Notes under the pieces: generated by a model
The model's database searches: none
The model's input: only the letters and a program-made list of their open reading frames with translations
What the model was told of the DNA's origin: nothing
IMG/VR virus record: IMGVR_UViG_3300032278_002433
Span: 1-32,911 of that record
From: a virus
Length of the DNA: 32,911 nt
Direction: 5' to 3' (one strand)
Position numbers and translations under genes: made by a program
Shown: positions 5,308-25,221 of the stretch, one piece after another
How the letters are laid out: each line of letters opens with the position of its first letter
Position numbering within the stretch: the stretch's first letter is position 1

Positions 5308-5855
5308 AAATTGAAAAATTTCAATATCCAGATTATGTTAATTTTAATAAGAAAATATTTCCAGTATTTTTAGAGTGGTCTAAAACAAAAGAAGATTTTC
5401 GTGAGAATAATGAATATCATAGGGATAGATATGATCAGAGAGTCAAAGAGAGAATCACATATTTTGATATGAATAAATCTTGGCATTCAGAAGATAATTT
5501 ACAAGATAATGAGTTATTAAAACCATTAAAAGATTTTATTCTTGAAACTGCAAAAAAAACATTTAATAAAAAATTTAAATTCTATACTATGTGGACAATA
5601 ATTACAAGAAAATATTCTAAAGGAGAACCACATTCACATCGTGGTTCTTATAGTGGTATATATTATGTAAATAATGGATGTTTTGATGATGATAACATTA
5701 CAGGATGTATAAATTTTGAAATGAAAGACGGAGTAAAAAAAGTTAAGCCACGAGATGGTGATTTATTATTTTTCCCATCAGATACGGTACATTATGTTGA
5801 TGAGTATCTTGGAGATGGCAATCGTGTTGTAATTTCTTTTAATTTGATGAAATGA
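5304..5855 (+). CDS. 2OG-Fe(II) oxygenase-like protein (paralogue 1)
   Basis: This 183-residue protein resembles the double-stranded beta-helix oxygenases of the TIGR02466 type. It has PHSHRGSYSGIYYV with H110 and H112, a distal H163 in DTVHYVDEY and R174 in GNRVVISFN, which fit metal and 2-oxoglutarate binding. The ATG at 5304 is preferred over TTG 5286 or ATG 5292. It gives the ATGA overlap used throughout this genome, and it lines up with the paralogue at 18261 (KFQYPDY here, KFEYPDY there). The substrate is unknown; such enzymes hydroxylate proteins, nucleobases or small molecules. It is followed through an ATGA overlap by a PP-loop ATPase. Confidence 0.7.
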   Translation: MKIEKFQYPDYVNFNKKIFPVFLEWSKTKEDFRENNEYHRDRYDQRVKERITYFDMNKSWHSEDNLQDNELLKPLKDFILETAKKTFNKKFKFYTMWTIITRKYSKGEPHSHRGSYSGIYYVNNGCFDDDNITGCINFEMKDGVKKVKPRDGDLLFFPSDTVHYVDEYLGDGNRVVISFNLMK

Positions 5856-6619
5856 AAGAAAAAACAGAACATAATATTTTTTGGTGTGCCGGAGTTGATT
5901 CTACTTATTGGGTTTGTAAAAAGTTAATTATAGATAAAGAACCAATTGAAACATATTATTTAGATTTTCCATGTGATGGAATAGACACCACAGGTTGGTC
6001 AGGTCCACGAAAGGATTTGGTAATAGGTGGTGGTAGATTTACACGAGATATAGAAAAAAAAGTGATGTCTAATTTGAGAAATCAAATAATAGATAGTTTT
6101 CCTTATACAAAGGAATTGTTTCCAGAAGTTGTAATGGTAGAAGAATTTGAGTTGGAAGATAGTGTTATACAATCTATAGAATATCTTTCTGAAACGTATA
6201 ATCATAGTCGTAGAATTATTGATCAAAATACTTTTATGGCACAGTATACATTAAATAGAAAAGAATTTTTTGATATTTGTTATGAGAAAGATATGAATGT
6301 TGGTGGTTATTCACCAGCAACTCGGTTGTTGAGAGAACAAATGAATGATGATTTTACAATATCTCATTCTGAAATCAAAGAGTTAAATATTTATAAATAT
6401 TGGAAATTTCCTATTTCAAAAACTTATAGACGAGATATGATTAGAGAATCTAAAAAACATGGTTTTATAAATATACTTGAAAATACTTGGTCTTGTAGAT
6501 GGCCATCTGAAAATGGTGATCTTTGTAATGAATGGCCCTGTGTAAATTCATGTATAGAATTTCAAGATGACATTGATGTTGATTTCAAACGAAAAAGAAA
6601 TTATAATGATTTGCTATGA
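5852..6619 (+). CDS. QueC-like PP-loop ATPase (copy 1)
   Basis: This 255-residue protein has an N-terminal PP-loop, CAGVDST (12-18), matching the SGGxDST ATP-pyrophosphatase signature with Cys-Ala in place of the first Ser-Gly. Near the C-terminus four cysteines (C215, C225, C230, C234) follow the pattern TWSC..C..C..C, as in QueC, where they bind zinc. QueC makes preQ0 by adenylating a carboxylate and adding ammonia; PP-loop enzymes generally activate a carbonyl for N or S transfer. The long middle part (about 60-200) is not recognisable. Two other proteins in the window share both ends of this design. It overlaps both neighbours through ATGA. I infer amide- or nitrile-forming chemistry on an unknown substrate. 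Confidence 0.7.
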   Translation: MKEKTEHNIFWCAGVDSTYWVCKKLIIDKEPIETYYLDFPCDGIDTTGWSGPRKDLVIGGGRFTRDIEKKVMSNLRNQIIDSFPYTKELFPEVVMVEEFELEDSVIQSIEYLSETYNHSRRIIDQNTFMAQYTLNRKEFFDICYEKDMNVGGYSPATRLLREQMNDDFTISHSEIKELNIYKYWKFPISKTYRRDMIRESKKHGFINILENTWSCRWPSENGDLCNEWPCVNSCIEFQDDIDVDFKRKRNYNDLL

Positions 6620-7359
6620 AATTTAAATTAGAGTTTGATAACCTTAAGCAAATAATTAAAGAAAAATGTAAATCTAAAAAGGTTATATATTTTCCTAATC
6701 CAGGTAATTGGGGTGATGGAATACTTAGATATGCGACTTTAAAATTATTTGAAGATATTGATTTAGAATATAAAGAAATAGGTTATGATTATGATAAATC
6801 TTATGATGGTGATATTGCAATTTATGGAGCTGGTGGTGCGTGGTGTGATATTCATCCACACGGTAGAATCATTACTGAGAATTTATTAAGAGATGGATTT
6901 GAGGTTATAGTTTTACCATCTACTTATGCATATAAACATCACATCGATAATACAATTTTTTTTCGTAGAGATAAATTTGAAAGTAAGTTGAATATAAAAA
7001 ATTCTATTTTTTGTCCAGATATGGTATTCTATCTTGAAAGTGAAAATTTGAAAAGGAAAAAGGGAAGAGGAATTGGATATTTTTTCAGAACAGATATAGA
7101 AAGTTCAAATAAATATAAAATTCCATCAACTAATTATGATATTAGTGCTGATGGAAATGAATGGTCACCCCCAGAACCTTTTTTTGATGAAATAAATAAA
7201 TATTCTGTTATACATACTGATAGGTTGCATATTGGAATATCAGCGTGTTTGTTAGGAAAAGAACTTCATTTATATGATGGAGCATATTTTAAAAATTTAA
7301 GTTTATATCTAACAAGTGTACTTGATAATTTTGATAATGTATATTTTCACGAGGAATAG
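6616..7359 (+). CDS. Polysaccharide pyruvyl-transferase-like protein
   Basis: This 247-residue protein fits the PF04230 family, a GT-B-like fold. The evidence is an N-terminal FPNPGNWGDGILRYAT (26-41), a YGAGGAW segment, VIVLPSTYAY, CPDMVFYL, and a C-terminal HTDRLHIGISACLLGK carrying the conserved R-x-H. Members add a ketal-linked pyruvate from phosphoenolpyruvate to sugars, or transfer other groups in exopolysaccharide pathways. It is shorter than many members (300-400 residues). It lies between two QueC-like PP-loop genes, overlapping the first by ATGA and leaving four bases before the second. It suggests that surface-glycan chemistry is part of this island. Confidence 0.7.
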   Translation: MKFKLEFDNLKQIIKEKCKSKKVIYFPNPGNWGDGILRYATLKLFEDIDLEYKEIGYDYDKSYDGDIAIYGAGGAWCDIHPHGRIITENLLRDGFEVIVLPSTYAYKHHIDNTIFFRRDKFESKLNIKNSIFCPDMVFYLESENLKRKKGRGIGYFFRTDIESSNKYKIPSTNYDISADGNEWSPPEPFFDEINKYSVIHTDRLHIGISACLLGKELHLYDGAYFKNLSLYLTSVLDNFDNVYFHEE

Positions 7360-7363
7360 TTAA

Positions 7364-8647
7364 ATGAAAACTTTACATATATATCCATTAGAACAAAGAA
7401 TTGATAAATCTAAACATATAAGATCATGTTCAATTGTAAAATTGAATAATGATTTCAAAGAAGATGAATTTATTCTTTGGTTTAAATTTAATAATTTAGA
7501 ATTCATTTCTGATATTGATGATAATGATTGTGATTCTTATTTACTTAGTATGATTCATGATGCTATGGTAGAAAACAGAAAAATAGTTGTACATGGTTCT
7601 GTATCAGAGAGTTTGTTAAACAATTTAGTAGAATATATTAATATTTGGAGCACTTGGTGTAATGTTGATTATTATGGTCATACTAAAGAAGTTAAGTGTA
7701 ATTATATAGAAATAGATGTTGAAAATATAGTAGAGGATTATAATATTCACGACCAGATATCTTACGGAGTCCCATATCAGGATCATTCTGCAGCAGTACT
7801 CGCGTTTAGTGGTGGAGTAGATAGTATGTTTAGTTTATGGAGTCATTATAATAATGAATTAAGTCATCAAAATAAGAAAATTAAATATGCTGTGTTTATT
7901 GGTGGAGCAGATATTAGTTTATCTCTATTAGAAAAGTATGATATTTGGTTTAAAGATATATCAGAAATATTAAATTCTATGGGAATTTCTTTTCATAGAG
8001 TAGATACAAATTTTAGAGAAGTATCAACTTCTTATTGGCCAATGAGTCATGGAGTGGCACTTACTTCAATTTTGAATCATTTTAAACCAATGGTTAGAAC
8101 TGGTATTATAGCTTCATCCACAAATTATACTGATTTTATTTCTGGTGTAAAGGGGCATTTACCTTGGGGTACAAACCCAATTACAGATTATTTGATGGGA
8201 CAAGAAAATTTTAAAATTTTACATAGTGGGGGAACTCATAGAAGGCAAGATAAAATATTGAAGATTGGTTCTTGGTTGGATGGTAAAAATAATTTAAGGA
8301 GTTGTTGGGAAGGCCCTCATGGGATAAAACAAATGAATGAAAATATTCTTAATTGTGGAAAGTGTAGAATGTGTATAAAAACAATGTTTTGTTTTATGAT
8401 AAATAAATTGGAGATTCCAAATAGTTTTCCAATTTGTAATATTGATGAAGTATCGTGGGATGAAATTGAATTTTATCGTAAGGATAATTTAGATGATACT
8501 GGATATTCACCAACAGTTTTTACAGAAGAAGAATTAAGGAATTATGGATTTAATATTGGAATATATTGGAAAGAAAAATTATTTACAATTTATAGTAAAA
8601 AAACAAAATGGGTAGATGCATTTTATGAGATGGTAAGAAATCAATGA
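7364..8647 (+). CDS. QueC-like PP-loop ATPase with extra N-terminal domain (copy 2)
   Basis: This 427-residue protein has the canonical PP-loop SGGVDS at 149-154, after a 140-residue N-terminal region of unknown fold. A Cys set C314, C331, C334, C337 (SCW ... CGKCRMC) closely matches the zinc site of QueC. After it comes a 90-residue tail. The middle contains STNYTDF and a THRRQDK segment that may line the substrate pocket. This is the most canonical of the three PP-loop proteins here. A GAGG ribosome site at 7352 serves the ATG at 7364. The product is unknown: preQ0-type nitriles, sugar amidation or thiolation are all within reach of this superfamily. Confidence 0.75.
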   Translation: MKTLHIYPLEQRIDKSKHIRSCSIVKLNNDFKEDEFILWFKFNNLEFISDIDDNDCDSYLLSMIHDAMVENRKIVVHGSVSESLLNNLVEYINIWSTWCNVDYYGHTKEVKCNYIEIDVENIVEDYNIHDQISYGVPYQDHSAAVLAFSGGVDSMFSLWSHYNNELSHQNKKIKYAVFIGGADISLSLLEKYDIWFKDISEILNSMGISFHRVDTNFREVSTSYWPMSHGVALTSILNHFKPMVRTGIIASSTNYTDFISGVKGHLPWGTNPITDYLMGQENFKILHSGGTHRRQDKILKIGSWLDGKNNLRSCWEGPHGIKQMNENILNCGKCRMCIKTMFCFMINKLEIPNSFPICNIDEVSWDEIEFYRKDNLDDTGYSPTVFTEEELRNYGFNIGIYWKEKLFTIYSKKTKWVDAFYEMVRNQ

Positions 8648-9279
8648 AATATTTATTTGTAATTTATACCGATTTAGAGTATAAGGAACATTTAGACCAT
8701 TTTAAAACCCAAGAATTTTATCAACAAATTTGTGATGATACTAATATTGAGGTTATAGAGTGGGGAACAGATTTTCATACAGATTATAAAGATTTACCAA
8801 TTAAAACTCAACAAATGATGAAGTGGTGTAGTGAAAATAAAGAATACGATTATTTAATAAAATGTGATGATACTATTTTTAATGATACTTGGAAATTTTA
8901 TAAACCACGATTTACATATGAGAATATTTTTGTAAAGGGTAGAGATGGATTTTCTTATACTTGTGATAGATGGGGAGATCAAAGTTGGTCAAAAGTTTGT
9001 GAAGATAATAATGATGATTATTGGGGAATAAATTATATAGGACCACAATCAGATGAAATATGGAAAATATATTTTGATGGACATTATGGTAAAAATAAAA
9101 TAGATTATAATTTAAAGTTTATCAAAAATGATATTCAGTTTTATGAAGGTAAATATTTTATGGTATCACGAGATTTAAGTATATTTATAGGTGAACAAGA
9201 AAAGTTCGCCAAAGACATGGCAAAGAATATGCCAGGAGTTGAGGATATAATGGTTGGTTATTTAGCAGAGTCGTTTTAA
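8644..9279 (+). CDS. Glycosyltransferase, GT31-like
   Basis: This 211-residue protein has a GT-A pattern like the galactosyltransferase (GT31) family. An acidic metal motif, KCDDT, lies at 73-77 after the hydrophobic stretch YDYLI. Near the C-terminus KYFMVSRDLSIFI is followed by VEDIMVGY, which mirrors the EDV(Y)VG block of GT31 enzymes. There is no transmembrane anchor, unlike eukaryotic members. It overlaps the preceding PP-loop gene through ATGA and abuts the next glycosyltransferase with no gap. Donor and acceptor sugars cannot be read from sequence. Confidence 0.6.
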   Translation: MKYLFVIYTDLEYKEHLDHFKTQEFYQQICDDTNIEVIEWGTDFHTDYKDLPIKTQQMMKWCSENKEYDYLIKCDDTIFNDTWKFYKPRFTYENIFVKGRDGFSYTCDRWGDQSWSKVCEDNNDDYWGINYIGPQSDEIWKIYFDGHYGKNKIDYNLKFIKNDIQFYEGKYFMVSRDLSIFIGEQEKFAKDMAKNMPGVEDIMVGYLAESF

Positions 9280-10014
9280 ATGAAAAAGGTTTTTGTAACA
9301 TTAGCAAACAAAGAATTTTTACCTTATGTTAAACCATTAGAAGTTTGTGCAAAAGAGGTTGGAAAATGGGATGGAGATTTTGTTTGTATCACAGAAGATT
9401 CAGAATTTGTTAAAAAGATTCCAGGGAATCCATCTATTCATTTTTATAAAATGTTTTTGTTTCATGAGTACTTTAACCAATGGGATTGGATATTTTATTG
9501 TGATTTAGATGTTATGTTTTTAAATAAAATAAATTTGGAATTAAAGAATAGGCAAAAGGATATTTTATATGCAAATGATGATGATCTTAAATTTCATGAG
9601 CAATTTAGCAAATTGCCAGTAGAATTAAATCCCGTTTCAGATTATAAATCATTTCAGACTTGTTTTTTGTTATTTAATAAACAAATTATTGGGGATGATT
9701 ATTTTAGCAAGTTGTATGAGTGTTATTTAGATTATTTTGTTTATAGAAAAATTGCAAAATATAGTTGGTGGGATCAAACAATTTTCAATTCAGTTTTCAT
9801 TGATTCTTGGCATGAGCTTGGTGATAAATTTGTTAATAGATGTCCAGTTTTAAATGAAATTGATTGGGACATATCAAAGTTAGAAAATGGTTATTATGAT
9901 AATACGGACTATTCAGATAAGATAGCTGTACATTTTTTTAGTTTTTTTCCACCATGGAACGAAAACAATTTAAAATTTTACCCAATATGGAAGGAGTATA
10001 ATGACAGATTCTAA
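9280..10014 (+). CDS. Glycosyltransferase, GT8-like
   Basis: This 244-residue protein has the GT-A metal-binding DxD motif in WIFYCDLDVMFL (D75, D77), the typical position in GT8 and related nucleotide-sugar transferases. Other agreeing features are an N-terminal strand KKVFVTLA, SWWDQTIFNSVF near 175-190 (the conserved DQ block) and a C-terminal AVHFFSF with a histidine near the end. It starts directly after the previous stop and overlaps the first MORN-repeat gene by 14 bases. Substrates are unknown. Confidence 0.7.
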   Translation: MKKVFVTLANKEFLPYVKPLEVCAKEVGKWDGDFVCITEDSEFVKKIPGNPSIHFYKMFLFHEYFNQWDWIFYCDLDVMFLNKINLELKNRQKDILYANDDDLKFHEQFSKLPVELNPVSDYKSFQTCFLLFNKQIIGDDYFSKLYECYLDYFVYRKIAKYSWWDQTIFNSVFIDSWHELGDKFVNRCPVLNEIDWDISKLENGYYDNTDYSDKIAVHFFSFFPPWNENNLKFYPIWKEYNDRF

Positions 10015-11509
10015 ACAAAAACATGGAGAATACATTAAATATGATGATTCTGGAAGAATTACAAACATTGATTGGTATACAGATGGAAATCATGATTGTA
10101 GTTTAGATATTACAGATGGAGAACATATTTATACTCACGGTGATGGAAAACTTTGGCAAAAATATACTTTAAAGGGTGGTAAACCAGATGGTGAGTGGGT
10201 TTTATATCATTCAAATACTCGAATGAGTTTTTATAGAAAATTTAAGAATGGTTCAAGAGAGGGAATTTGGACAGGATGGCATAATGATGCTACAAGATGG
10301 ATGGTTGAAACTTATAAAGACGATAAAGAAAATGGATCTTTTAAGAGGTGGAGATATGGTGAAGTACCTCAATTTGAAGGTTATTATAAAGATGGTAAAA
10401 AAACTGATAAATGGATTTATTATTATGAAAGTGGAATACATGAATATGGTGGAAAATATAAGAATGGTAAAAGAATAGGAAAATGGGAAAGGTGGCATGA
10501 TGTATCAGGTCAAATATTTGCTATATCATATTATAAATATGGAAAATTAAATGGGAAATATACTGAGATTAACGAGGCTGGAAATGTATCAGTTGATGGT
10601 AATTATAAAAATGGTGAAAAGGATGGTAAATGGGTTTCTTTAAATAAAAATAAAAAAGTGGAAATGGAATTTAATTACAAAGATGGAAAGTTACATGGAA
10701 AGAAAATTTATTTTAATAAGTTAGGAAACCAAGCGAAAGTAGAATTTTACAAAAATGGGGAAATAGACAAGACAATTAATTATCATACTAATTTAGACCA
10801 AAAATTTAGGGAATTTAATTATGTAGATGGTAAGTTGAATGGGAAACATACAGAATTTGATAAAAAAGGAAATATAATTCTTAATGGTTATTACAAAGAT
10901 GGTGAAAAGGACGGTAAATGGGTTTTACTATCTCTTGGTGGTGATCCACGGAAAGAGGAAAATTATTTAGAAGGTAGATTAAGTGGTATCGTTAAAAAAT
11001 GGCATCCTAATAAAAAACTTTGGGTAGATGGTGAATATAGAAATGGTAAAAAACATGGAACTATCAAGAGTTTCCATTTTAATGGTGAAAAATCAACTCG
11101 TGAAAATTGGAATCAAGATAAAAAAGATGGTGATTGGACTGATTGGCATAAAAATGGAAATAAAAAAATGGAAACCATATATTCTAAAGGTGAAATACAA
11201 GGTAAACGGGTAGATTGGTATGTGAGTGGTAAATTAAAAAATGAATACTTTTGTAAAGACGATAAAATTCATGGAAATTTTTTAGAAAATTTTCCTAATG
11301 GCATCATTAGAAGTAAGGGTAAAGTTAAAAAGGGAAAAATGGATGGAAAATGGACATTTTGGTATCACAATGGACAAAAAGAGTGTGAGGTTATTTGTAA
11401 AAATGGAGAACTTATTGATGGTAAAGTTTGGGACGATGATGGCAATAAAAAAGAAAGTTTAAGATTTAATTTAACTTGGGAAGGTTCTGATGAACTACAG
11501 GATATTTGA
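10001..11509 (+). CDS. MORN-repeat protein 1 (MORN_2 / YwqK-like)
   Basis: Nearly the whole 502-residue protein is built of roughly 22-25-residue units of the MORN variant type. Each has a core like YKNGKKDGKW, then an aromatic strand such as WYHNG, and then a strand with alternating charge. I count close to twenty units, from GEYIKYDDSG at the start to ECEVICKNGE near the end. There is no signal peptide or membrane segment. The ATG at 10001 has an AAGGAG site at 9991-9996. MORN_2 repeats occur in bacterial proteins of mostly unknown role, some called YwqK-family antitoxins. They form elongated beta structures that can act as scaffolds or receptor-binding parts. It is paired with a second MORN gene through TGATG. 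Confidence 0.8.
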   Translation: MTDSKQKHGEYIKYDDSGRITNIDWYTDGNHDCSLDITDGEHIYTHGDGKLWQKYTLKGGKPDGEWVLYHSNTRMSFYRKFKNGSREGIWTGWHNDATRWMVETYKDDKENGSFKRWRYGEVPQFEGYYKDGKKTDKWIYYYESGIHEYGGKYKNGKRIGKWERWHDVSGQIFAISYYKYGKLNGKYTEINEAGNVSVDGNYKNGEKDGKWVSLNKNKKVEMEFNYKDGKLHGKKIYFNKLGNQAKVEFYKNGEIDKTINYHTNLDQKFREFNYVDGKLNGKHTEFDKKGNIILNGYYKDGEKDGKWVLLSLGGDPRKEENYLEGRLSGIVKKWHPNKKLWVDGEYRNGKKHGTIKSFHFNGEKSTRENWNQDKKDGDWTDWHKNGNKKMETIYSKGEIQGKRVDWYVSGKLKNEYFCKDDKIHGNFLENFPNGIIRSKGKVKKGKMDGKWTFWYHNGQKECEVICKNGELIDGKVWDDDGNKKESLRFNLTWEGSDELQDI

Positions 11510-12756
11510 TGGTAAAATATAAAAAAGTACCAAATAATAAAAATGCAATAGAGATTGATGGAAAGGTAGTACTGTCATTTGATCCAAGGTATAAAAAATA
11601 TTTGAAATGGAAAGATAAAAATCCTGAGTTAGAGGAAAGATTAATAGATAATTTAGAACAAGAAATAGAAAATGAAAAGTTGTATAATCTTGGTGCTCCA
11701 CATACGGGATCTAATAGTTGGAGTTGGTATAATGAAGATGGGAAATTAGGTTTGGAATCTGAAATGAGTGGGGGTAAGAAAGATGGAGAAGAGAAGGCAT
11801 ATCACGATAGTGGAAATTTAAAGTCTATATTTGAGTATCAAAATGATGTGATTCATGGTAAATCAAAAAATTGGTATGATAATGGTGAATTAGAAATGGA
11901 AGGGAATTTTAAGAACGGTAAAAAAGATGGTAAATGTATTTTTTATTTTGAGAATGGTAATAAAAAATGGGAAGGTAATTACAAAGATGATATTGTTTAT
12001 GGTCAATTGATTCAATATAAAGAAGATGGAAAGATAAGGTCAAAAGAAAATTATATAGATGGGGTTTTAGATGGAAATTACGAATTTTATCATAAAAATG
12101 GAAATTTAAGACAAAGTGGTTGGATACAAAATTATATGAAAAATGGAGAAATTAAATCATATTGGGAAAATGGATATTTACAATTATTAGAAAATTTTAA
12201 GATGGGAAGTAAACACGGAATAATCAATAAATATGGAATAGATGGAAAAATGCTTATGTCGGGTCAATATAAAAATAATTATCGTCATGGAAATTGGACA
12301 TGGTATTATATAGATAACACGTGTCTTCCTCTCTCTCGGATAGAGAGAGTGAGAGAAGGTCTCAGAGCAAAGAGGAAACGAGAGGTATATGAATTTTCAG
12401 ATTTAAAAAAGGTTATTGATTGGAATGAAAAAGGACAAAAAGTTAGTGAGGCAACCAAGAGTGCTACTGGATACGGTATATGGAGAAATCTTACTTGGTA
12501 TTCAAGTGGAGTTAAAAAACATGATGTAAATTACACAATAATGCACCATTTACACGGAAAATGGTCAGAATGGCATACGAATGGTGTAAAAAGAGCAGAA
12601 GGTAATATGCAATATGGAATGATGCAAGGAAAGTGGATATTTTGGCATCATAATAGAAAAAAAGAATTAGAATGTGAGTTTGATTTTGGAAGGCCCGTTG
12701 GTAGTGCAAAAATATATCATGATGGTGGTCAATTAAAGGAAGTGGTAAATTTTTGA
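11509..12756 (+). CDS. MORN-repeat protein 2 (MORN_2 / YwqK-like)
   Basis: This protein has 415 residues from ATG 11509, chosen over TTG 11506 because it forms the TGATG junction. The first 65 residues are a non-repeat, coiled and acidic region (ELEERLIDNLEQEIENEK). MORN_2 units follow with cores such as FKNGKKDGKC and HNRKKELECE. The array is broken near residues 268-300 by a basic, G+C-richer stretch (SRIERVREGLRAKRKR) that coincides with a DNA hairpin at 12331-12349. Repeats resume after it. The two MORN genes are probably duplicates that diverged. The stop overlaps the radical SAM gene's TTG. Function is unknown; a structural or binding role is the simplest inference. Confidence 0.8.
   Translation: MVKYKKVPNNKNAIEIDGKVVLSFDPRYKKYLKWKDKNPELEERLIDNLEQEIENEKLYNLGAPHTGSNSWSWYNEDGKLGLESEMSGGKKDGEEKAYHDSGNLKSIFEYQNDVIHGKSKNWYDNGELEMEGNFKNGKKDGKCIFYFENGNKKWEGNYKDDIVYGQLIQYKEDGKIRSKENYIDGVLDGNYEFYHKNGNLRQSGWIQNYMKNGEIKSYWENGYLQLLENFKMGSKHGIINKYGIDGKMLMSGQYKNNYRHGNWTWYYIDNTCLPLSRIERVREGLRAKRKREVYEFSDLKKVIDWNEKGQKVSEATKSATGYGIWRNLTWYSSGVKKHDVNYTIMHHLHGKWSEWHTNGVKRAEGNMQYGMMQGKWIFWHHNRKKELECEFDFGRPVGSAKIYHDGGQLKEVVNF
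12331..12349. repeat. CT/GA hairpin inside MORN gene 2
   Basis: CTCTCTC (12331-12337) and GAGAGAG (12343-12349) are exact complements around a five-base loop GGATA. The surroundings (about 12319-12385) are richer in G+C and in CT/GA repeats than any nearby sequence. The stretch lies in frame within a MORN array, and its translation does not follow the repeat consensus. It looks like an in-frame insertion or local simple-sequence expansion. Confidence 0.55.
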
Positions 12757-13592
12757 AAAAAAATAATTTAACATTAATTGATACATACAATTTGTGGTAT
12801 GATGGTTTAGAGGTAGATTATTTGTCAGGAAACTTTGACCTTATGATACAGTCTACTTGTAATTTACATTGCAAAGATTGTAGTATTTTAGATTGGAAAG
12901 GAAATGAATATCCTGGACAAACGATGAAACTTGAAGATGTTATAAATATAAATGAAAAGTTGATTAAACTTGGAATTATAGTGTATAGGTTAACTTTATT
13001 GGGTGGAGAGCCTACTCTTAATAAAGATATTATTAAGATTATAAAATATTTATCAGAGTTTAAAAATATAACTTTTAAAGAATTAAAGTTGATTACTAAT
13101 GGTTTATATTTTAAAAAAGATATTATTAAGTCATTTGAAGATTTAGATAGTTTAAGAATCTCTATATATCCTTATACTTTGGATATGAAAAAAGAACTTA
13201 TAAGAAGTCCATTGTATAAACATTTACTATCAATTACTGATCTTGAAGTAATAGAATTTGATCAATTTATTTGTTATGGAGTTGAGGATCCTAAGTTAGA
13301 ATATAGTAAAGAATTAAATTGGGAAAGATGTTTGAAAAAGAGTTGGTGTAGACATCTTACAATAGATGGATTGTATAGGTGTGATATTTTAGAAAATATA
13401 GGGAAAGAATTTTGTGATATGTCAGATAAAAATAAGGTAATAGATTATATAAAATCTGATGTTCCATATGATTATTGTGAAAAATGTCCACAACCTGCAT
13501 TAAGTAAACCATGGCAGAGTAATAATCCAGAAGTAGATAAAAAGAATACTAAACGAGGAATTTCTTTAATAAAAGAATGGAACTATGAGTAA
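12753..13592 (+). CDS. Radical SAM protein
   Basis: This 279-residue protein has the radical SAM cluster motif CNLHCKDC (C36, C40, C43), followed by the GGEP motif in LLGGEPTLNKD, both diagnostic. The C-terminal part has further cysteines (WCRHLTIDGLYRCDIL, then CEKCP), which may bind an auxiliary Fe-S cluster as in SPASM or Twitch proteins. The start is TTG, overlapping the MORN stop as TTGA, with AAGGAAG about ten bases upstream. It lacks the N-terminal features of QueE, so it is not obviously part of a queuosine pathway with the PP-loop genes. The substrate is unknown; radical SAM enzymes with glycosyltransferases often modify sugars or peptides. Confidence 0.8.
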   Translation: MKKNNLTLIDTYNLWYDGLEVDYLSGNFDLMIQSTCNLHCKDCSILDWKGNEYPGQTMKLEDVININEKLIKLGIIVYRLTLLGGEPTLNKDIIKIIKYLSEFKNITFKELKLITNGLYFKKDIIKSFEDLDSLRISIYPYTLDMKKELIRSPLYKHLLSITDLEVIEFDQFICYGVEDPKLEYSKELNWERCLKKSWCRHLTIDGLYRCDILENIGKEFCDMSDKNKVIDYIKSDVPYDYCEKCPQPALSKPWQSNNPEVDKKNTKRGISLIKEWNYE

Positions 13593-14100
13593 GATATTTT
13601 TAATAGGTTATATGGGAGTTGGTAAAACTACAGTTGGTAAAGTTTTATCAGAAAAACTGAATTGTGATTTTATAGATCCAGATGATAAAGAACATTGGAT
13701 AAGACGAGGTTTTCCTAATGGTCGAAGTGATGCATGGCATGTTAGTAAGGAAAAATTCTATGATATAGAAACAGAAATACTTAAAGATTATATATTAAGT
13801 AACGTTGGAAATTTTGTATATTCTACAGCAGGTTCTATTGTTTTACGAGAAGAAAATGTAGATTTAATGAAGTCAAGTGGAACAATAATTTTTTTAAATG
13901 CCAATGCTAAGATTATACATGATAGGTTAAAAAATTCAGATAAACAATTTCATGTGTCAAAAAATTATAATGAAGAAGATGTAAAAGAGTTTATGAAAGG
14001 TAGAGAACCTAAATATAAGTTTGCTGATTTAGAAATTGATACGAGTGATAAGTCTGTTGAAGAAGTTTCTTCAACTATAATAAAGTTGTTAAAGTTATGA
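13585..14100 (+). CDS. Shikimate-kinase-like P-loop kinase
   Basis: This 171-residue protein matches the length and start of AroK-type kinases. The P-loop GYMGVGKTT lies at 8-16 in the context MSKIFLIGYMGVGKTTVGK, followed by FIDPDD, the metal and substrate acidic position. The GGG block of AroK appears as the degenerate STAGSIVL, and the lid has REPKYKFAD near 137-145, like the R-x-P-x-Y of shikimate kinase. The altered GGG block suggests another small-molecule substrate, perhaps a sugar or nucleoside. It overlaps its neighbours by eight and four bases, so it belongs with the radical SAM and deaminase genes. Confidence 0.75.
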   Translation: MSKIFLIGYMGVGKTTVGKVLSEKLNCDFIDPDDKEHWIRRGFPNGRSDAWHVSKEKFYDIETEILKDYILSNVGNFVYSTAGSIVLREENVDLMKSSGTIIFLNANAKIIHDRLKNSDKQFHVSKNYNEEDVKEFMKGREPKYKFADLEIDTSDKSVEEVSSTIIKLLKL

Positions 14101-15737
14101 CTGATGAATATTATATGGAATTAGCTTTAGAGGAAGCTAAAATTGCATTGGAAGGAGGAAATTGGCCAATAGGTTGTGTTATTGAACTTGATGGAGAAGT
14201 AATTGCTAAAGAACATAATAGGGTTTATGATTCAAAGTCTCGGATTGAACATGCTGAAAAAATTGCAATAGAGAAAGTTTCACAGATTCTATGGGATAAT
14301 CCAGGACGGGCAACTCTTTATACTACCTATGAACCTTGTCCTATGTGTTTTGGGGCGATTATGTTAAGTGGGATAAAGAAAATTGTTTTTGGGTCTAATG
14401 TAGATAAGAGTGGTGCTTCAAATATTAGAAAACATTTACCATCTGTATATCAGGAAGATTATTATAAGGTGGATATAGTTGGGGATGTTTTAGAGAAAGA
14501 ATGTACTGAAGTATTTTTAAAGGGAAATAAAGCCTTCTTACTTGAAAAATATAAATTGTATTATGTATTAGAAAAGAATAATATTGATAGAGATATATTA
14601 AAAGAGAATGATGTATTTTTAGTTGGTAGTTCAATTTTACGATTATTTATGAATATACCATTAGATACAGATTTAGATTTTTATATTGAAATGGAAGAAA
14701 ATTATAAAAGAGTTGATAAATATTTTAATAATAATTTTCATTTTAATTATAATTGGACTATGGAAGATGGAAATTTTAAAAGTTATAAATGCAATTCTAA
14801 TGAAGTTCAGTTAATGAATCGATTACAATCTGTAGATAAGTTTATTGATAATTTTGATTTTACTATAATTAAAAGTTATTTTTCTTTTAAAGATGAGAAG
14901 TTTGTTTTTCATAAAAGATTTTTTGATGATATAAAATGTAAAAAGTTAGTATATGAATCAAAGGATAATCCTGGACCAATAGGGACAATGAAAAGAATTG
15001 ATAAATATAAAAAATTAGGATTTAAAGTAGATAATAAAAGTTTTAAAAAGTTATATGATGATGTTAAATCTGCTAGAGAAGGTGGTTATTTAGATAAATT
15101 AAAGGGAGTGGTTAAGAAAGTAAGTTGGTTACGGGCTAAAGAAATATATCCAAATATTCCAAACATAGATTTCTTTGTTAATTGGTTGATGGAAATAAAA
15201 GAACATAAATATTTTGATAAATTTAATTATTATTTATTTGGTGGTTTTATATCTTGGCCAGAAAAAACTAAGGATATAGATATATTAATAACAAAAAGAG
15301 ATGGTCAACATACTACCCTAAAAGAACTTGAAAAATTAATGGTGGATATGTTCGATTTTGCATACGACATTCACGGATTTTTTCTTGATACTTGTTATAT
15401 GAGAATTCCACAATGGATAGCAGATTATCCAAGAAATAAAGAAATTTTGAAGTCGGTAGAAAAAAAACAGTTATTTATCACCATAACAAAAAATAAACCT
15501 GAATATATGGTCAAATTTAAAAGGTATGGAAAACTTAATTGTTGTTATATGGGAACTTGGGAAAAGTTTTGGAAAGATAAAGATATCGAATCAGAGATGA
15601 TTCATAGATGGGTTGATTTAGATGCAAATTATACAAAAATGGTAGATTTAAGAAGAATCATAAAGTATTATGATAATGATAAGGAAAGAAATATAGAAGA
15701 TTTTTTGAATGAGTTTCAAGAATATTCGGGTTATTAG
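14097..15737 (+). CDS. Deaminase fused to two nucleotidyltransferase-like domains
   Basis: This is a 546-residue fusion. Residues 1-145 are a TadA/guanine-deaminase-type zinc domain: HAE at 52-54 supplies the zinc histidine and catalytic glutamate, and PCPMC at 80-84 the two cysteines. Residues about 172-330 contain GSS (177-179) followed by D190-x-D192-x-D194, the pattern of pol-beta/MNT nucleotidyltransferases. Residues about 375-530 repeat this with FGG (381-383) and D393-x-D395. Standalone TadA is about 160 residues, so the fusion is unusual. A bifunctional step on a nucleotide or tRNA end is possible. The A+T content is extreme (14701-14760 has only 7 G/C of 60). It is coupled to the kinase gene through ATGA. 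Confidence 0.7.
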   Translation: MTDEYYMELALEEAKIALEGGNWPIGCVIELDGEVIAKEHNRVYDSKSRIEHAEKIAIEKVSQILWDNPGRATLYTTYEPCPMCFGAIMLSGIKKIVFGSNVDKSGASNIRKHLPSVYQEDYYKVDIVGDVLEKECTEVFLKGNKAFLLEKYKLYYVLEKNNIDRDILKENDVFLVGSSILRLFMNIPLDTDLDFYIEMEENYKRVDKYFNNNFHFNYNWTMEDGNFKSYKCNSNEVQLMNRLQSVDKFIDNFDFTIIKSYFSFKDEKFVFHKRFFDDIKCKKLVYESKDNPGPIGTMKRIDKYKKLGFKVDNKSFKKLYDDVKSAREGGYLDKLKGVVKKVSWLRAKEIYPNIPNIDFFVNWLMEIKEHKYFDKFNYYLFGGFISWPEKTKDIDILITKRDGQHTTLKELEKLMVDMFDFAYDIHGFFLDTCYMRIPQWIADYPRNKEILKSVEKKQLFITITKNKPEYMVKFKRYGKLNCCYMGTWEKFWKDKDIESEMIHRWVDLDANYTKMVDLRRIIKYYDNDKERNIEDFLNEFQEYSGY

Positions 15738-16444: not shown

Positions 16445-17354
16445 TTTTATTATACCTTTTTCTACGATAGAAAAAGATAAGTTTTTAAACTTAAACGAGA
16501 AAGAAGATTTGTGGAAAGAAAATGATTCTGCAAATATAATCTATTCTACTATAAAAACAATTAAAAATATTAATTCACTTGAATGTGAAAAAGAAATTTT
16601 ATTAATGGATAATAGTCATACTTGGCCAGAGATAAAATTACCAAATGTTAGAGTTATTAAGGGATGGCAAGCATTACCACTTAAAGAACTTGAAAAGATT
16701 CCAGAATACATGAACCACAGAGATATACAGGCAAGTTTAGATAACCTTGGTTGTTTGACTATGTGGGTATCTATGGCATTTCATTTGGGAACACAAGAAG
16801 CAAAGGGCGAGTATGTGGTATTACAACATAATGACACATTCTATCATCAAGATTGTATAGATGAAATGATTAAAGAAATGGAAGAAGAAGAACTTGAATA
16901 TATTTCAGTTGATAATAAGAAGATATGGATTTCAACTTATTTGTTAAATAAAGATTTTTTAGATAAATATATTAAAGAATATACTGCACAACCAGTTATA
17001 ATAAGACCTGAAAATGGTGGATATATAAAAACTAAAAAGGTTGGATTTGCAGATGCGTATTTTTTCATGTGTAAGAGAAAGTTCTTTGATAATTATAATA
17101 TAGACTGGTACTATGGTGATACGAATCATGGTGCTACTGTTTATTGTCTCTATAATGATTTAAAGTATCTTCATTTGGGTCCCTATTATGATAATCCAAA
17201 TTGGGAAACGGAAGATACGTTACATACATATTACTATAAAGATGAGCCATTTTTAACTCATCTTAAAGGTGGATTTTCAGAAAATAAGATGTCATCAAAA
17301 GATTTTGAAGAAGAATTTAATAGTTATTTACAGGAATTAAAAAATGCAAAATGA
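16437..17354 (+). CDS. Glycosyltransferase, GT2-like (GT-A fold)
   Basis: This 305-residue protein begins with the typical MISFIIPFST strand of GT2 enzymes. EILLMDNSHTW follows at strand two. A region GEYVVLQHNDTFYHQDCI has HND at the place of the DxD metal motif. Further on are FFMCKRKFFDNY and a C-terminal HLKGG segment. There are no membrane segments, so it acts in the cytoplasm. The ribosome site AAGGAG precedes ATG 16437. It overlaps the gp44 gene by 11 bases, so cargo and replication genes are translationally linked here. Substrates are unknown. Confidence 0.65.
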   Translation: MISFIIPFSTIEKDKFLNLNEKEDLWKENDSANIIYSTIKTIKNINSLECEKEILLMDNSHTWPEIKLPNVRVIKGWQALPLKELEKIPEYMNHRDIQASLDNLGCLTMWVSMAFHLGTQEAKGEYVVLQHNDTFYHQDCIDEMIKEMEEEELEYISVDNKKIWISTYLLNKDFLDKYIKEYTAQPVIIRPENGGYIKTKKVGFADAYFFMCKRKFFDNYNIDWYYGDTNHGATVYCLYNDLKYLHLGPYYDNPNWETEDTLHTYYYKDEPFLTHLKGGFSENKMSSKDFEEEFNSYLQELKNAK

Positions 17355-18264
17355 ACATACCCTATGGGTAGAAAAATATAGACCAACTTCGTTAGATACA
17401 TATTTAGGTAACGAACACTTAAAGAGTAAGGTATCTCTTTATCTTGAAAGTGGAGATATACCACATTTACTTTTATATGGAAAGGCAGGTACAGGTAAAA
17501 CTACACTTGCAAAGATACTCGTAAATCACATAGAGTGTGATTATATCTATATTAATGCGAGTGATGAAAATAATGTGGATACAGTTCGGAACAAGGTGAA
17601 GATGTTTGCATCTACATTAGGTTTCAAAGATTACAAGGTCATTATACTTGATGAGTGTGATTATATCACACCAAATGCCCAGGCCGCACTAAGAAATTTG
17701 ATGGAAACATTTAGTAAACATTGTAGGTTTGTTTTAACCTGTAATTTCGTAGAGAGAATAATTGACCCGATACAATCTCGATGCCAGACATTCCAAACTA
17801 CACCACCATCCAAAAAGGAAGTGGCAGTTCATTTATCAAAAATATTGGAAACCGAAGAAGTAGGATATGAACTATCTGATATAGCACTTTTAATAAACAG
17901 TGTATATCCAGATATAAGACGAGTTATCAATTCCGCACAACGACAATCAGTAGAAGGTGAATTGACAATAGATAAACAGAGTATCGTAGAGAATGATTAT
18001 AAGTTAAAGTTATTAGAAATATTAAAGACACAAGATAGGAAAAATGCATTTAAGAGCATCCGTCAGTTATTGGCAGATAGTCAAGTTAAGGATTACGCAG
18101 ACTTATTTAGACTACTATATGATGAAGTAGATAGTTATGGTAAGGGACATATTGCAGAATGTATTTTAGTATTAGGAAAGTATGAATTAAGTGATAGTCA
18201 GGTAGTTGATAAAGAAATCAATGCTATGGCTATGATAATAGAATTATTAGGAGTCATAAAATAA
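17344..18264 (+). CDS. 44: Clamp-loader ATPase large subunit (T4 gp44-like)
   Basis: This 306-residue AAA+ protein matches gp44 of T4 (319 residues). It has the RFC-type start LWVEKYRPTSLDTYLG, Walker A GKAGTGKT at 46-53, Walker B ILDECD ending at 106, and the SRC arginine-finger motif at 145-147 (PIQSRCQTF). Four such subunits plus gp62 open the gp45 ring and load it onto primer-template DNA. It is relatively G+C-rich (17641-17700 has 23 G/C of 60) compared with the flanking cargo, which suggests a different history. gp62 does not follow directly as in T4; a candidate lies almost 12 kb downstream. The stop TAA overlaps the presumed lost start of the next gene. Confidence 0.95.
   Translation: MQNEHTLWVEKYRPTSLDTYLGNEHLKSKVSLYLESGDIPHLLLYGKAGTGKTTLAKILVNHIECDYIYINASDENNVDTVRNKVKMFASTLGFKDYKVIILDECDYITPNAQAALRNLMETFSKHCRFVLTCNFVERIIDPIQSRCQTFQTTPPSKKEVAVHLSKILETEEVGYELSDIALLINSVYPDIRRVINSAQRQSVEGELTIDKQSIVENDYKLKLLEILKTQDRKNAFKSIRQLLADSQVKDYADLFRLLYDEVDSYGKGHIAECILVLGKYELSDSQVVDKEINAMAMIIELLGVIK
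18249..18264 (+). promoter_or_regulatory. Ribosome site and apparent lost start (ATA) at the gp44 / oxygenase junction
   Basis: AGGAG at 18249-18253 is followed seven bases later by ATAA (18261-18264). Other junctions in this genome have ATGA at this place, with ATG the start of the next gene and TGA the stop of the previous one. A G to A change at 18263 would convert ATGA to ATAA, keeping a stop for gp44 but removing the start of the downstream frame. The downstream frame (ATA AAA ATA AAT CCT) encodes the expected N-terminus of a 2OG oxygenase paralogue. Confidence 0.65.
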
Positions 18265-20684: not shown

Positions 20685-21265
20685 TGAAAATTTTTGAAGT
20701 TGGAATAATGAGAACAGGAACTACTTCACTTGGTCTCGCTTATGAAATTTTAGGATTTAAACATAAAGGGTGTGATCATATTTTAAATGAAGAATTAAAT
20801 GAAAAAGAAGATTATAATATATTATTTGATGTGATTGATAAATATGATGCATTTGAAGATGTACCATGTCAATCAGTAGAAGTTAAAATATTAGATGAGA
20901 AATATCCTAATAGTAAATTTATTTTGTTAGAAAGGGATGATGAGAGTTGGATTAAGAGTTTGGAATATTGGTCATCTCCTGGATTAAAAGAAAATGAAGA
21001 TTGGAAAACATGGATTAAATTCGATAGAGAGTTGGTAACTGAAAGGTGGGTAACAGATAGAGACAATTTAATTAAAGAACATTTGGATTACAAACATGAA
21101 AAATATAATATTGTTAAAGAATATTTCAGGAACAGACCTGATGATTTATTGGTAATGAATATTTGTGGTGGTGAAGGGTGGGAAGTATTGTGTCTATTTT
21201 TAAATAAACCCATTCCAAGTGTTCCATTTCCAAAATTAAATGTTTGGGCATCAAATTTTGAATAA
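20681..21265 (+). CDS. Sulfotransferase-like protein
   Basis: This 194-residue protein starts with the 5'-phosphosulfate-binding loop of sulfotransferases, VGIMRTGTTSL (8-18). YPNSKFILLERDDESWIKS near 75-93 follows, matching the 3'-phosphate-binding strand. It resembles the short sulfotransferase families of marine bacteria and phages. Such enzymes transfer sulfate from PAPS to hydroxyls of sugars or other small molecules. The start at 20681 forms ATGA with the ClpP stop; the second ATG at 20684 is also possible. Beside glycosyltransferase and sugar-kinase genes, glycan sulfation is a reasonable inference. Confidence 0.8.
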   Translation: MMKIFEVGIMRTGTTSLGLAYEILGFKHKGCDHILNEELNEKEDYNILFDVIDKYDAFEDVPCQSVEVKILDEKYPNSKFILLERDDESWIKSLEYWSSPGLKENEDWKTWIKFDRELVTERWVTDRDNLIKEHLDYKHEKYNIVKEYFRNRPDDLLVMNICGGEGWEVLCLFLNKPIPSVPFPKLNVWASNFE

Positions 21266-21284
21266 ATATTTATAGGAGTATTTA

Positions 21285-22079: not shown

Positions 22080-22374
22080 AAGAAAACTACCTCAACAACC
22101 ACAAACAGAAGTTAAGGTTGATTTATCAAAAGCAGATACTATAAAATGTGATGATTGTGGAAATTATCTTTTTATTACAGCAAGTGTAATTAAGAGAATT
22201 TCACCAATTTTATCACCAACAGGACAAGAAGCACTTGTTCCTGTTCAAGTATATAGTTGTGGAAATTGTGGTAAAGTTCCAAAGGTGTTTTTAGAGGGAA
22301 GTGGACTTGGTTTAGATGAAGAAATCAATAAACCAAAAGAAGATGCACTTTCGCGACCTGATTTGATGGGATAA
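22072..22374 (+). CDS. Small zinc-ribbon protein
   Basis: This 100-residue protein has two CxxC pairs, C26-DD-C29 and C63-GN-C66, spaced as in a zinc ribbon. A basic, Pro/Gln-rich N-terminus and an acidic C-terminal tail flank the ribbon. The family is not recognised further. It overlaps the sugar-kinase gene by eight bases and shares one base with the next gene (TAATG). Zinc ribbons of this size in T4-like phages often act in nucleic-acid or protein binding. Confidence 0.6.
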   Translation: MAKRKLPQQPQTEVKVDLSKADTIKCDDCGNYLFITASVIKRISPILSPTGQEALVPVQVYSCGNCGKVPKVFLEGSGLGLDEEINKPKEDALSRPDLMG

Positions 22375-22946
22375 TGTTAGAGTCTATATCATTAGATATT
22401 GCAAATTATTGGACATCAAATGATTTTTTAACAGAATCCAATAAAAATTGTGGAACTCTTGTTGCATTCGATTGGAGAAAAAAATATTTATCTGAGATAA
22501 ATACTAATATTGATTTAAGTGATTTAGAAGTTGATAATTTTAAATTTGATGTTTTTGCAGAATTTTTAAAGAAGAATAATTTTACTTTCGTGTTAGGATT
22601 GAGAAATATTTCATATACAAAGAATCCATCTCCAGAATGGACAGATAAATTTAAAGAAATATTAAAATCTAATGAGATAGACTATGATGAATATACAATA
22701 GGTAATTGGCCAACACCAATTCCAGAATTTGACGTTCCCGATAATATTTTTATTTTAAGATATTCATATGATCCATATAGTAAGATAGACCAATTTGCAT
22801 CTGTTAATCTATTATTTAGAAATTGGTTGAAAAAAAGTGATTGGGAAGAATATTATAAAGATAGTAAAATTGTGGAAAGGACGAGAGTTATAGTTTTATG
22901 TAGTGATATAGAAAATTTAATATTACATGAGAGTTTTGATAAATGA
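22374..22946 (+). CDS. Hypothetical protein
   Basis: I do not recognise this 190-residue protein. It is acidic and rich in Asp, Asn, Phe and Trp, without signal peptide, membrane segment or clear catalytic motif. A middle block, WPTPIPEFDVPDNIFILRYS, and a closing VIVLCSDIENLILHES look like buried beta strands. The start at 22374 shares a base with the previous stop (TAATG), which supports it as a real gene. Confidence 0.6.
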   Translation: MLESISLDIANYWTSNDFLTESNKNCGTLVAFDWRKKYLSEINTNIDLSDLEVDNFKFDVFAEFLKKNNFTFVLGLRNISYTKNPSPEWTDKFKEILKSNEIDYDEYTIGNWPTPIPEFDVPDNIFILRYSYDPYSKIDQFASVNLLFRNWLKKSDWEEYYKDSKIVERTRVIVLCSDIENLILHESFDK

Positions 22947-22964
22947 TTAAATTATGGTAAGGAT

Positions 22965-23609
22965 ATGCAGAAATTAATTTATGCAATAGGGGATAGTTGG
23001 ACATATGGTACTGAATTGGATAATCCAGAGACGGAATGTTATCCTTATCTTTTATCACAAAAACTTGGATGTGATTTAATAAATGAGGCTAAACCAGCCG
23101 GATCAAATGATTGGATGTTTAGAAAATCTGTTGAATGGATTGCCACAAACGATACTTCAAAGATTCATACTTTTATTGTGGGCTGGTCAATGGCAGATAG
23201 GAGAGAAGAACATTTTAAATTCTTTCACGGGGGACCTCCCAAATGGGAAAGAAAGTATAGTTGGCATTCAGGAGAAGATAATGATTTATCCAAGTTTATT
23301 AGTAAGAAGTTACATAATACGAGATTACAATCAATAAAAACTTTTATATATATGTACACCTTACAAGAACTACTTAAAAAGAATAATGTTAATTATATAT
23401 TTTATTTTCCCTGGGAAGATTTGCTACTACAAGATGAATGGTACAATGGAGAGATAAAAAAGGATGTTCATGATATTTATATAAAGATAGATAAAAGGTA
23501 TTGTGTTGAACCCCAAAGATTCCGGATCCAGGGGTTACATCCAAATAAGTATCAACATATACTGATGTCAAATGGATTATATGAAAATATAATAAGGAGA
23601 ATTATATGA
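22965..23609 (+). CDS. SGNH/GDSL hydrolase-like protein
   Basis: This 214-residue protein has block I GDSWTYG at 9-15 with the nucleophile serine S11. AGSND at 45-49 is the glycine/asparagine region, and GLHPNKYQH at 190-198 gives a candidate block V histidine (H192). SGNH enzymes are esterases or acetyl-hydrolases, often on acylated polysaccharides. The acidic DxxH partner is not obvious, so activity is uncertain. AAGGA lies only one base before the ATG, a poor spacing. A second SGNH-like gene lies at 31209. Confidence 0.65.
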   Translation: MQKLIYAIGDSWTYGTELDNPETECYPYLLSQKLGCDLINEAKPAGSNDWMFRKSVEWIATNDTSKIHTFIVGWSMADRREEHFKFFHGGPPKWERKYSWHSGEDNDLSKFISKKLHNTRLQSIKTFIYMYTLQELLKKNNVNYIFYFPWEDLLLQDEWYNGEIKKDVHDIYIKIDKRYCVEPQRFRIQGLHPNKYQHILMSNGLYENIIRRII

Positions 23610-24013
23610 TATTCCAAATTAACGATGTTCATTATATTCAGGAAAGTGCATCGCTTGATAGTGTAATAAATTTCGTATCCTATTATTTCGAAGATAGTGG
23701 ATCAAGGACTGGTGGTGGTATAAATACTGTTAGGAAACATTATAGTTTACAATTAAATACAGTACATTCATCTGAATTTATTGGTTACAATAGTGTAACT
23801 ACATCTTCATTGAAAGATTGGATTGAGACTTCACATGGAAATACTTGGGGTTCATTTACTTCAAGTATTGATACTGCAATAAGTACAAGTTTATCAGCAG
23901 ATGTGAATTCATCTACACCACTACACAGTATAACATGGAATTCAGGTTCTATGGCTAGGGATACTAATCTTACTCAAGTTTTCTTTGCATTGGGTGAAGG
24001 ATGGAGCGGCTAG
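23606..24013 (+). CDS. Hypothetical Ser/Thr-rich beta protein
   Basis: This 135-residue protein is not recognised. It begins MIFQINDVHYIQESASLDSV and is rich in Ser, Thr, Asn and aromatic residues with few lysines. That composition is unlike the Lys/Asp-rich cargo proteins around it and more like a phage structural or fibre-associated protein. It contains no cysteine. It starts on an ATGA overlap with the SGNH gene and leaves a 17-base gap before the next gene. Confidence 0.6.
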   Translation: MIFQINDVHYIQESASLDSVINFVSYYFEDSGSRTGGGINTVRKHYSLQLNTVHSSEFIGYNSVTTSSLKDWIETSHGNTWGSFTSSIDTAISTSLSADVNSSTPLHSITWNSGSMARDTNLTQVFFALGEGWSG

Positions 24014-24030
24014 ATATAGTGGGTATGTAG

Positions 24031-25221
24031 ATGATTAAAAAACCATTATCTTGTAAATTAATATCATCTGATATTGATATTGATTTAGACGGTTTATTAT
24101 TAACAAAAATTGGTAGTTATAAAAAGGTTATTAAAGAATTAATTTATGATATACATAAAGAACTTTCTGATCCTTGGGATGATATATGGTCCTTTGATGA
24201 TGTAATTGAGAGATTTGATAAGGGTGAAATTTTATGGTTAGTTTTGAAGGATGAGAAACCAATAAGTTGTAGTTGGATATCAGTTAAGTCTAAAAAGAAT
24301 TTGTATGTCTATAATACTTGGTTAAAACCAAAATTACGAGGAACACCTTTATTTAAAAAAATATCATTGGTTAGAAATAATAAGTTGTATAATTTAGGTT
24401 ATGAAAAACTTCTATGTGTTACCGATAATGTTCGTGCAGAATGGGGATTAAAAAAGATTGGATATAAAGAAGATAATTGGTTAAATATCCATTATACATT
24501 TTGGACAGGTGGATATGATTCAACTTTTTATGTGTGTAAACTTTTGACAGAGGGGGAAATAGTACAACCGATTTATATAGACGATAGAGTAAATCACGGT
24601 GGCTATCATGCAAATCCACTTGTAAAACAAAGAGGTGGTGATACTTATCCAAGAAAATCTACGGAAATAGAATTGGAAAGAATGGATTGGTTAAGGCAAA
24701 GAATTTATGAAAAAATTGAAAAGTCTAAATATTTATTGTTGGAAACAATGGTTATTGATAAACCGATAGAAGAAGATGAAGAAATAAGTAAGGTTGTAGA
24801 AAAATACAATGAATGGATTCCCGAATCATTATACAGAGATAAAAATGGTGATACACATTGGTTAGAGGCCCAAGCAGATATGGTATTGAGATTTGGAAAA
24901 CAATTTGGTTATAGAATAAATTACCCTATAAATTATATTGAAGATGATTGGTATGAAATTCTTGATTCTGCAATCAAAGATGGGAAGTTTTATTCTGAAA
25001 AATTACCAGAAGAAAATAAAGATTTGAGTATATTTGGTGTATTTGATTATCCATCAAGACATTTAAAAAAAGAAGAAATGCTAAAGATAGCAGAAAAAAG
25101 AGGATTTGATGAGTTATTGTATTATACTTGGACTTGTTGGTATCCTAAAAATGGTAAACCTTGTAATGAATGTAAGGTTTGTTCAGAACGAATAATAGAA
25201 AGTAAGGAAATAAAAATATGA
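24031..25221 (+). CDS. GNAT acetyltransferase-like domain fused to QueC-like PP-loop ATPase (copy 3)
   Basis: This is a 396-residue fusion. Residues 1-150 look like a GNAT domain: a beta strand ILWLVLKDEKPISCSWI, then LKPKLRGTPLFKKIS in the acetyl-CoA loop position, and LGYEKLLCVTDN..AEWGLKKIGYKE at the end. From 155 on it is a PP-loop protein: TGGYDST at 159-165 and a QueC-like C-terminal Cys set C369, C378, C381, C384 (TWTC ... CNECKVC). The PP-loop half has the same plan as the protein at 5852. The fusion implies acetylation (or a related acyl transfer) and ATP-driven amidation acting on the same or consecutive substrates. It overlaps the outer-membrane-like gene by ATGA. Confidence 0.7.
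   Translation: MIKKPLSCKLISSDIDIDLDGLLLTKIGSYKKVIKELIYDIHKELSDPWDDIWSFDDVIERFDKGEILWLVLKDEKPISCSWISVKSKKNLYVYNTWLKPKLRGTPLFKKISLVRNNKLYNLGYEKLLCVTDNVRAEWGLKKIGYKEDNWLNIHYTFWTGGYDSTFYVCKLLTEGEIVQPIYIDDRVNHGGYHANPLVKQRGGDTYPRKSTEIELERMDWLRQRIYEKIEKSKYLLLETMVIDKPIEEDEEISKVVEKYNEWIPESLYRDKNGDTHWLEAQADMVLRFGKQFGYRINYPINYIEDDWYEILDSAIKDGKFYSEKLPEENKDLSIFGVFDYPSRHLKKEEMLKIAEKRGFDELLYYTWTCWYPKNGKPCNECKVCSERIIESKEIKI

Follow-up and report, generated by a model that had tools for sequence, protein, structure and literature searches.

PP-loop enzymes split ATP to AMP and pyrophosphate (PPi); the group activated in this way is a carboxyl, an amide or a carbonyl. Enzymes of this type can also form nitriles (PMC13060819). 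QueC (PDB 3bl5, 2pg3) combines a PP-loop core (SGGxDS) with a zinc-type site of four cysteines spaced C(x)8CxxCxxC; residues in its motifs YxQxHxxE, VPxRN and YPDC, together with Tyr189, were shown by mutation to be required in E. coli QueC (PMC13329287). Two other enzymes of this fold, QatC of the qatABCD anti-phage defence (PDB 9y01, 9y02) and Cap9 of the type IV cyclic-oligonucleotide-based anti-phage signalling system (CBASS; PDB 9nto), act on protein N-termini (PMC13279940). Phages carry 'QueC' singletons, without pathway genes alongside (SFP_0023, PHROG 1550); Hutinet et al. (2019) considered that these genes, SFP_0023 among them, may have a function unconnected with that of QueC (PMC6884629). 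The N-acetyl sugar amidotransferases WbpG and PseA are PP-loop enzymes of sugar-polymer pathways (PMC10607449).

We compared with these systems three proteins encoded on the plus strand of the IMG/VR virus record IMGVR_UViG_3300032278_002433, namely P1 (5852..6619), P2 (7364..8647) and P3 (24031..25221). The whole record of 32,911 bases, itself a genome fragment, is called the window here. A preliminary description had presented the three proteins as one set of QueC-like ATPases, standing outside any queuosine pathway and perhaps forming nitrile, amide or thio groups on sugars or bases. The most valuable part of the finding is the P2 family, a large bacterial family apparently without prior description in the literature searched. 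We put the probability that glycan synthesis, rather than 7-deazaguanine chemistry, is the business of P2 at roughly 0.65.

The P2 family and its QatC-like build

P2 has a PP-loop of the standard form (SGGVDS at residue 149) followed by the cysteine set Cys314-x16-Cys331-x2-Cys334-x2-Cys337. The first gap is wider than in QueC, and the pattern is nearer to the C-x19-CGxCxx of QatC (PMC13329287). A scan of the bacterial and archaeal genomes of GTDB with a four-sequence P2 alignment gave 207 confirmed places, of which the best 80 were kept as loci. The hosts include proteobacteria, cyanobacteria, Bacteroidetes and Verrucomicrobia, among others; plasmid searches added Bacillota and one haloarchaeon. 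Nine positions are invariant in an alignment of 59 family members, including the Gly and Asp of the PP-loop and all four cysteines. Pfam recognised little in nine members of the family: QueC and DUF6395 each received one weak match, from single members. Single-protein and pattern searches of deposited phages and viral contigs revealed no close relatives of P2, nor of P1.

The AlphaFold model of P2 (mean predicted local distance difference test score, pLDDT, of 85) was compared with known structures by VIA-align. The top match was QatC (9y01_B, Z 14.0, 314 residues, root-mean-square deviation 5.1), followed by QueC (Z 11.8, core only) and Cap9 (Z 10.2); the remaining PP-loop enzymes scored Z 9 or less. 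The sulfur transferases LarE and TtuA, which are marked by a three-Cys [4Fe-4S] site and by sulfur insertion, fell at Z 7–9, the general PP-loop level, as did TilS and the nitrile synthetase ArtA. Since the match to QatC, a QueC core with N- and C-terminal extensions, runs over residues 1–387 of the model, P2 is predicted to possess the N-terminal alpha/beta extension by which QatC differs from QueC. In addition, QatC and P2 have in common an SGGxDS core and a C-x(n)-CGxCxxC site. Cap9 shares the QueC-fold core with P2; however, Cap9 is minimal and retains a YxDC/RN signature, whereas P2 has the extension and lacks this signature. The YxDC motif was absent from P1, P2 and the P3 family, and no CD-NTase was recognised in the window.

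Still, P2 is QatC-like in build without being QatC: a sequence link is missing, and so is the substrate-site motif of QatC. Identity to QatC is 11%, and P2 lies in a glycan gene setting. TRTTHP, found in six of six QatC sequences, occurs in none of 66 P2-family sequences. The comparison of the P2 family with QatC by hhalign was not significant, Foldseek by itself gave no P2 match under E 0.001, and the P2 profile had no significant match among PDB sequences (the PP-loop of GMP synthase came first at E 0.11, then QatC at E 0.22). The QatC model of PADLOC did not match P2 and matched just two of the 59 family sequences, at E 0.027 or worse. No qatA, qatB or qatD was recognised in the window, nor did they figure in the commonest groups of neighbours at 87 P2 loci, although no dedicated search was made for them.

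A phage-borne protein with a QatC-like fold could in principle be a QatC mimic that counters host qatABCD immunity. We regard this as very improbable, given that the relatives of P2 reside in bacterial polysaccharide clusters, that no Qat partner family is prominent among their most frequent neighbours and that the PADLOC model misses P2.

P2 beside pyruvyl-transferase genes

Directly upstream of P2 lies a gene (6616..7359, plus strand) for a polysaccharide pyruvyl-transferase-like protein (PS_pyruv_trans, PF04230, E 8.5e-8; 32.9 bits against a cut-off of 25.3). Four bases separate it from P2. The genes downstream, both on the plus strand, code for a galactosyltransferase-like protein (8644..9279; PF01762, E 5.5e-5) and for a probable glycosyltransferase (9280..10014), the latter named from its DxD-like sequence YCDLDVMFLN and without a Pfam or family match. 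The neighbours named in the preliminary description (glycosyltransferases, a pyruvyl-transferase-like protein and, in P3, a GNAT domain) were confirmed.

With its pyruvyl-transferase gene, P2 and glycosyltransferase, the window repeats a layout seen in bacteria. A gene of the pyruvyl-transferase family was present within the fetched flanks of 28 of the 80 genome loci (two such partners, overlooked by the initial profile, were then confirmed with Pfam). It was the immediate neighbour of P2 in 20 of these 28 loci, compared with 5.45 expected from gene counts; none of 500,000 simulations reached 20, in a test that counts loci as independent while several are close relatives. Adjacent pairs, in both gene orders, were observed in Methylophaga, Methylococcaceae, Colwellia, Psychrobacter, Nostoc, Devosia, Pelagibacterium, Azospirillum and one Bacteroidetes bin. 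The 6616–7359 protein is most closely related to the copy that adjoins P2, in the same gene order, in a Colwellia bin; the two are 37% identical. Other recurrent neighbours, by sequence reading, are glycosyltransferases, flippases and sugar-nucleotide enzymes. Fusions of P2 with pyruvyl-transferase genes were not found. A literature search, with most subscription journals outside its scope, returned no account of a PP-loop protein paired with a pyruvyl transferase.

The sole other viral P2 case found is in the prophage-like contig L156 (7863–10492), where a P2 homologue is followed by a polysaccharide flippase, with phage structural genes on the flanks. Such a layout would be that of a lysogenic-conversion pair.

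Because of these gene neighbours we infer that the chemistry of P2 serves glycan synthesis. Together with the pyruvyl-transferase-like gene upstream and the glycosyltransferases downstream, P2 would make up a small cassette for glycan modification, bacterial in origin. At SGGVDS the enzyme would bind ATP and activate an acceptor, most likely a carboxyl, as an AMP ester; attack by ammonia or an amine would then leave a polysaccharide or sugar precursor with an amide-type decoration. The carboxyl-bearing group could be supplied by the pyruvyl-transferase homologue: a pyruvyl transferase, which moves pyruvate from PEP to a sugar, would leave a free carboxylate on the sugar and therefore a natural target for amidation. 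As to the chemical group formed, we can offer a guess; no other reaction seems as likely as amidation of the pyruvyl carboxylate, to which we give about one chance in three. As a result, the surface glycan of the infected cell would be altered, e.g. with superinfection blocked. The role proposed is analogous to that of WbpG and PseA. P2 is not one of these amidotransferases, as their CxxC(x)6CxC motif was present in none of the sequences tested.

The main rival explanation holds that P2 acts on a protein, as QatC and Cap9 do: it would attach a group at the N-terminus of a partner protein, which could be the pyruvyl-transferase homologue or one of the glycosyltransferases, and in this way control glycan synthesis. 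The top structural match, N-terminal extension included, speaks for it, and so do the protein N-termini that QatC and Cap9 target (PMC13279940). On the other hand, the proteins encoded next to P2 have no N-terminal glycine motif in common of the kind seen in QatB, and both the absence of TRTTHP and the hhalign result separate the P2 family from QatC. We consider this explanation distinctly unlikely.

Several points count against a role of P2 in glycan synthesis, besides the relatedness of loci in the neighbour test. A pyruvyl transferase is near P2 in only about one third of the loci and is therefore not an obligatory partner. The enzyme nearest to P2 in fold, QatC, probably modifies a protein. 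The window, moreover, is a fragment. The wider proposal is accordingly put forward tentatively, at somewhat less than even odds: the P2 family would be a glycan-directed branch of the QatC build that, with pyruvyl-transferase homologues, carries out an undescribed ATP-dependent decoration of polysaccharides (amide or amine conjugation) in many phyla and at least two viruses.

P1, P3 and the queuosine pathway

P3 consists of a GNAT domain (residues ∼1–153) fused to a QueC-like PP-loop domain (∼154–396). Its PP-loop is a variant of SGGxDS (TGGYDS at residue 159); its cysteines, Cys369-x8-Cys378-x2-Cys381-x2-Cys384, have the exact QueC spacing, as they do in 14 of 14 sequences of the P3 family. 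P3 alone of the three proteins passed the Pfam cut-off for QueC (PF06508; 23.7 bits against 22, via the C-terminal part). The P3 family aligned with QueC by hhalign at E 2e-7 across 196 columns, and Foldseek matched P3 to QueC at 8e-5. The GNAT domain was identified by Pfam in relatives and by fold matches up to Z 15.8; GNAT domains dominate the VIA-align list for P3, which carries little information on the QueC-like half.

P1 is homologous to P3, matching P3-family loci with E down to 1e-17, and gave no match in Pfam, PHROG, NCBIfam or PADLOC. It is devoid of the GNAT domain, its PP-loop reads CAGVDS and its cysteines (C215-x9-C225-x4-C230-x3-C234) are a degenerate form of the QueC signature. 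P1 is a diverged copy of P3 in which the standard PP-loop and cysteine spacing are gone; it may be inactive or altered in function. By tblastn P2 found no P3-family locus, and as profiles the P2 and P3 families matched marginally (hhalign 56%). P1/P3 and P2 are two separate families, which dissolves the single set of the preliminary description. Of that description, all three open reading frames stood, as did the PP-loop and four-cysteine signatures of P2 and P3; the signature of P1 proved degenerate. The likeness to QueC itself is not a matter of chance, in view of the P1–P3 homology, the alignment of P3 with QueC and the structural scores of P2.

The motifs YPDC, VPxRN, YxQxHxxE and [ST]CY were present in 14 of 14 QueC controls and in none of the P1 and P3-family sequences; in the P2 family each occurred in 0–3 of 66 sequences, a chance level. 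The Tyr following the first zinc cysteine of QueC is likewise absent from P1, P2 and P3, apart from those chance-level matches in the P2 family. All three proteins, judging by sequence, are without residues required for queuosine synthesis. No FolE, QueD or TGT-type gene was detected in 11 viral records, the window and 10 related ones (∼527 kb, all fragments); a QueE profile gave only weak matches to other radical SAM proteins, no evidence either way. Among 29 P2-bearing genomes, 22 had a clear separate QueC and seven did not. In five of the seven (L044, L052, L072, L088 and L096; Alginatibacterium, Jannaschia, Pelagibacterium, Devosia and Mesorhizobium, mostly drafts) QueD was absent too, which argues that P2, unlike QueC and Cap9, does not use the queuosine precursor.

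Ordinary 7-deazaguanine modification of DNA or tRNA would require the remaining genes to lie in another part of the genome or the host to provide them. The proteins do have the QueC fold, absence from fragments is no proof and host 7-carboxy-7-deazaguanine (CDG) would be usable; nevertheless, with the QueC catalytic motifs missing in P1, P2 and P3, FolE, QueD and TGT absent from all 11 records and P2 found in bacteria lacking both QueC and QueD, we hold this explanation to be highly improbable. The earlier statements that no FolE, QueD or DpdA-like gene accompanies the three proteins, and that the pathway is not that of queuosine, are borne out; QueC catalytic residues combined with queuosine genes, which would have been the contrary sign, were not found in these fragmentary records.

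P3 and its diverged copy P1 would rather be members of the phage group of QueC-like singletons, with no preQ0 production. P3 matched phrog_1550 at 1.6e-13, and the profile of P1 and P3 picked up SFP_0023 of Salmonella phage SFP10. P3 differs from these singletons by the fused GNAT domain, and P1 by its non-standard PP-loop and cysteines. Relatives of phage SFP10 carry hypermodified thymine, and P1 and P3 might, as perhaps do other QueC-like singletons of phages, take part in a hypermodification of phage DNA bases other than 7-deazaguanine. The match to SFP_0023 is marginal, however, at 20 bits, and neither genes of thymine hypermodification nor a gene of TGT or DpdA type were recognised in the window; we find such a role rather improbable.

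The fusion in P3 recurs in ∼17 related viral contigs with strong synteny; deposited phages contained no close relative. A protein of no assigned family and no PHROG match (22374..22946, plus strand), noted from this synteny, adjoins P3 in most relatives. In eight relatives tested (L004, L007–L010, L012, L015 and L034) a gene of the AdoMetDC/SpeD family directly follows the P3 homologue and overlaps its end. P3 would thus unite acetyltransferase and PP-loop domains in one protein, accompanied in relatives by a SpeD-like decarboxylase. The sugar setting claimed for all three proteins fits P2, which in bacteria belongs to polysaccharide clusters and adjoins genes for pyruvyl transferases, and not P3 with its different conserved neighbourhood.

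The overlapping SpeD-family gene suggests an alternative in which the GNAT and ligase-like domains of P3 serve polyamine or arginine/ornithine metabolism. SpeD homologues of marine phages can work as decarboxylases of arginine or ornithine, and spermidine acetyltransferases are known from phages too (PMC9992855). Yet the SpeD-like gene is missing from the window, and SpeD is widespread in marine phages regardless; we deem this role unlikely. Any role assigned to P1 and P3 is at present a guess.

The window and the uses of the QueC fold

The window contains a T4-like replication module with DNA polymerase (2–1126), sliding clamp (1185–1904) and clamp-loader subunits (17344–18264 and 30157–30615). 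P1, the pyruvyl-transferase homologue and P2 come after the clamp gene and before those of the clamp loader; this region varies among relatives. A 2OG-Fe(II) oxygenase (5286..5855, plus strand; PF13759, E 6.4e-12) is encoded upstream of P1.

Two long tandem proteins of MORN-like YKxGKxxGxW repeats occupy 10001–12756; the first has no PHROG match, and shorter relatives occur in three viral loci. They are followed by a radical SAM protein (12753–13592) with a MoaA- and viperin-like N-terminal half under NCBIfam cut-offs, a shikimate-kinase-like protein in a variable island (13585–14100; PF01202, E 2.2e-27) and a protein (14097–15737) with a TadA-like deaminase domain and a long region common to the unknown PHROGs 4400 and 16176. 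A SET-domain protein (27660–28142; PF00856, E 4.6e-12) is kept in related contigs. At the two ends of the fragment (4087–5307 and 31919–32911) are proteins in which an SPPY motif goes with weak matches to N6_N4 methylases.

Recent work on bacterial immunity has shown that enzymes of the QueC fold modify proteins. PF06508, on which a 2026 map of the QueC family was built, hardly detects the P2 family. If the proposal made here is true, a family of QatC build in polysaccharide clusters shows a further use of that build and adds new chemistry to bacterial surface sugars. In the reading favoured here, a single phage employs the QueC fold twice and independently, once in P2 and once in P3 with P1. 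A QueC-like gene in a phage should not, then, be read automatically as queuosine biosynthesis, and the alternatives are testable.

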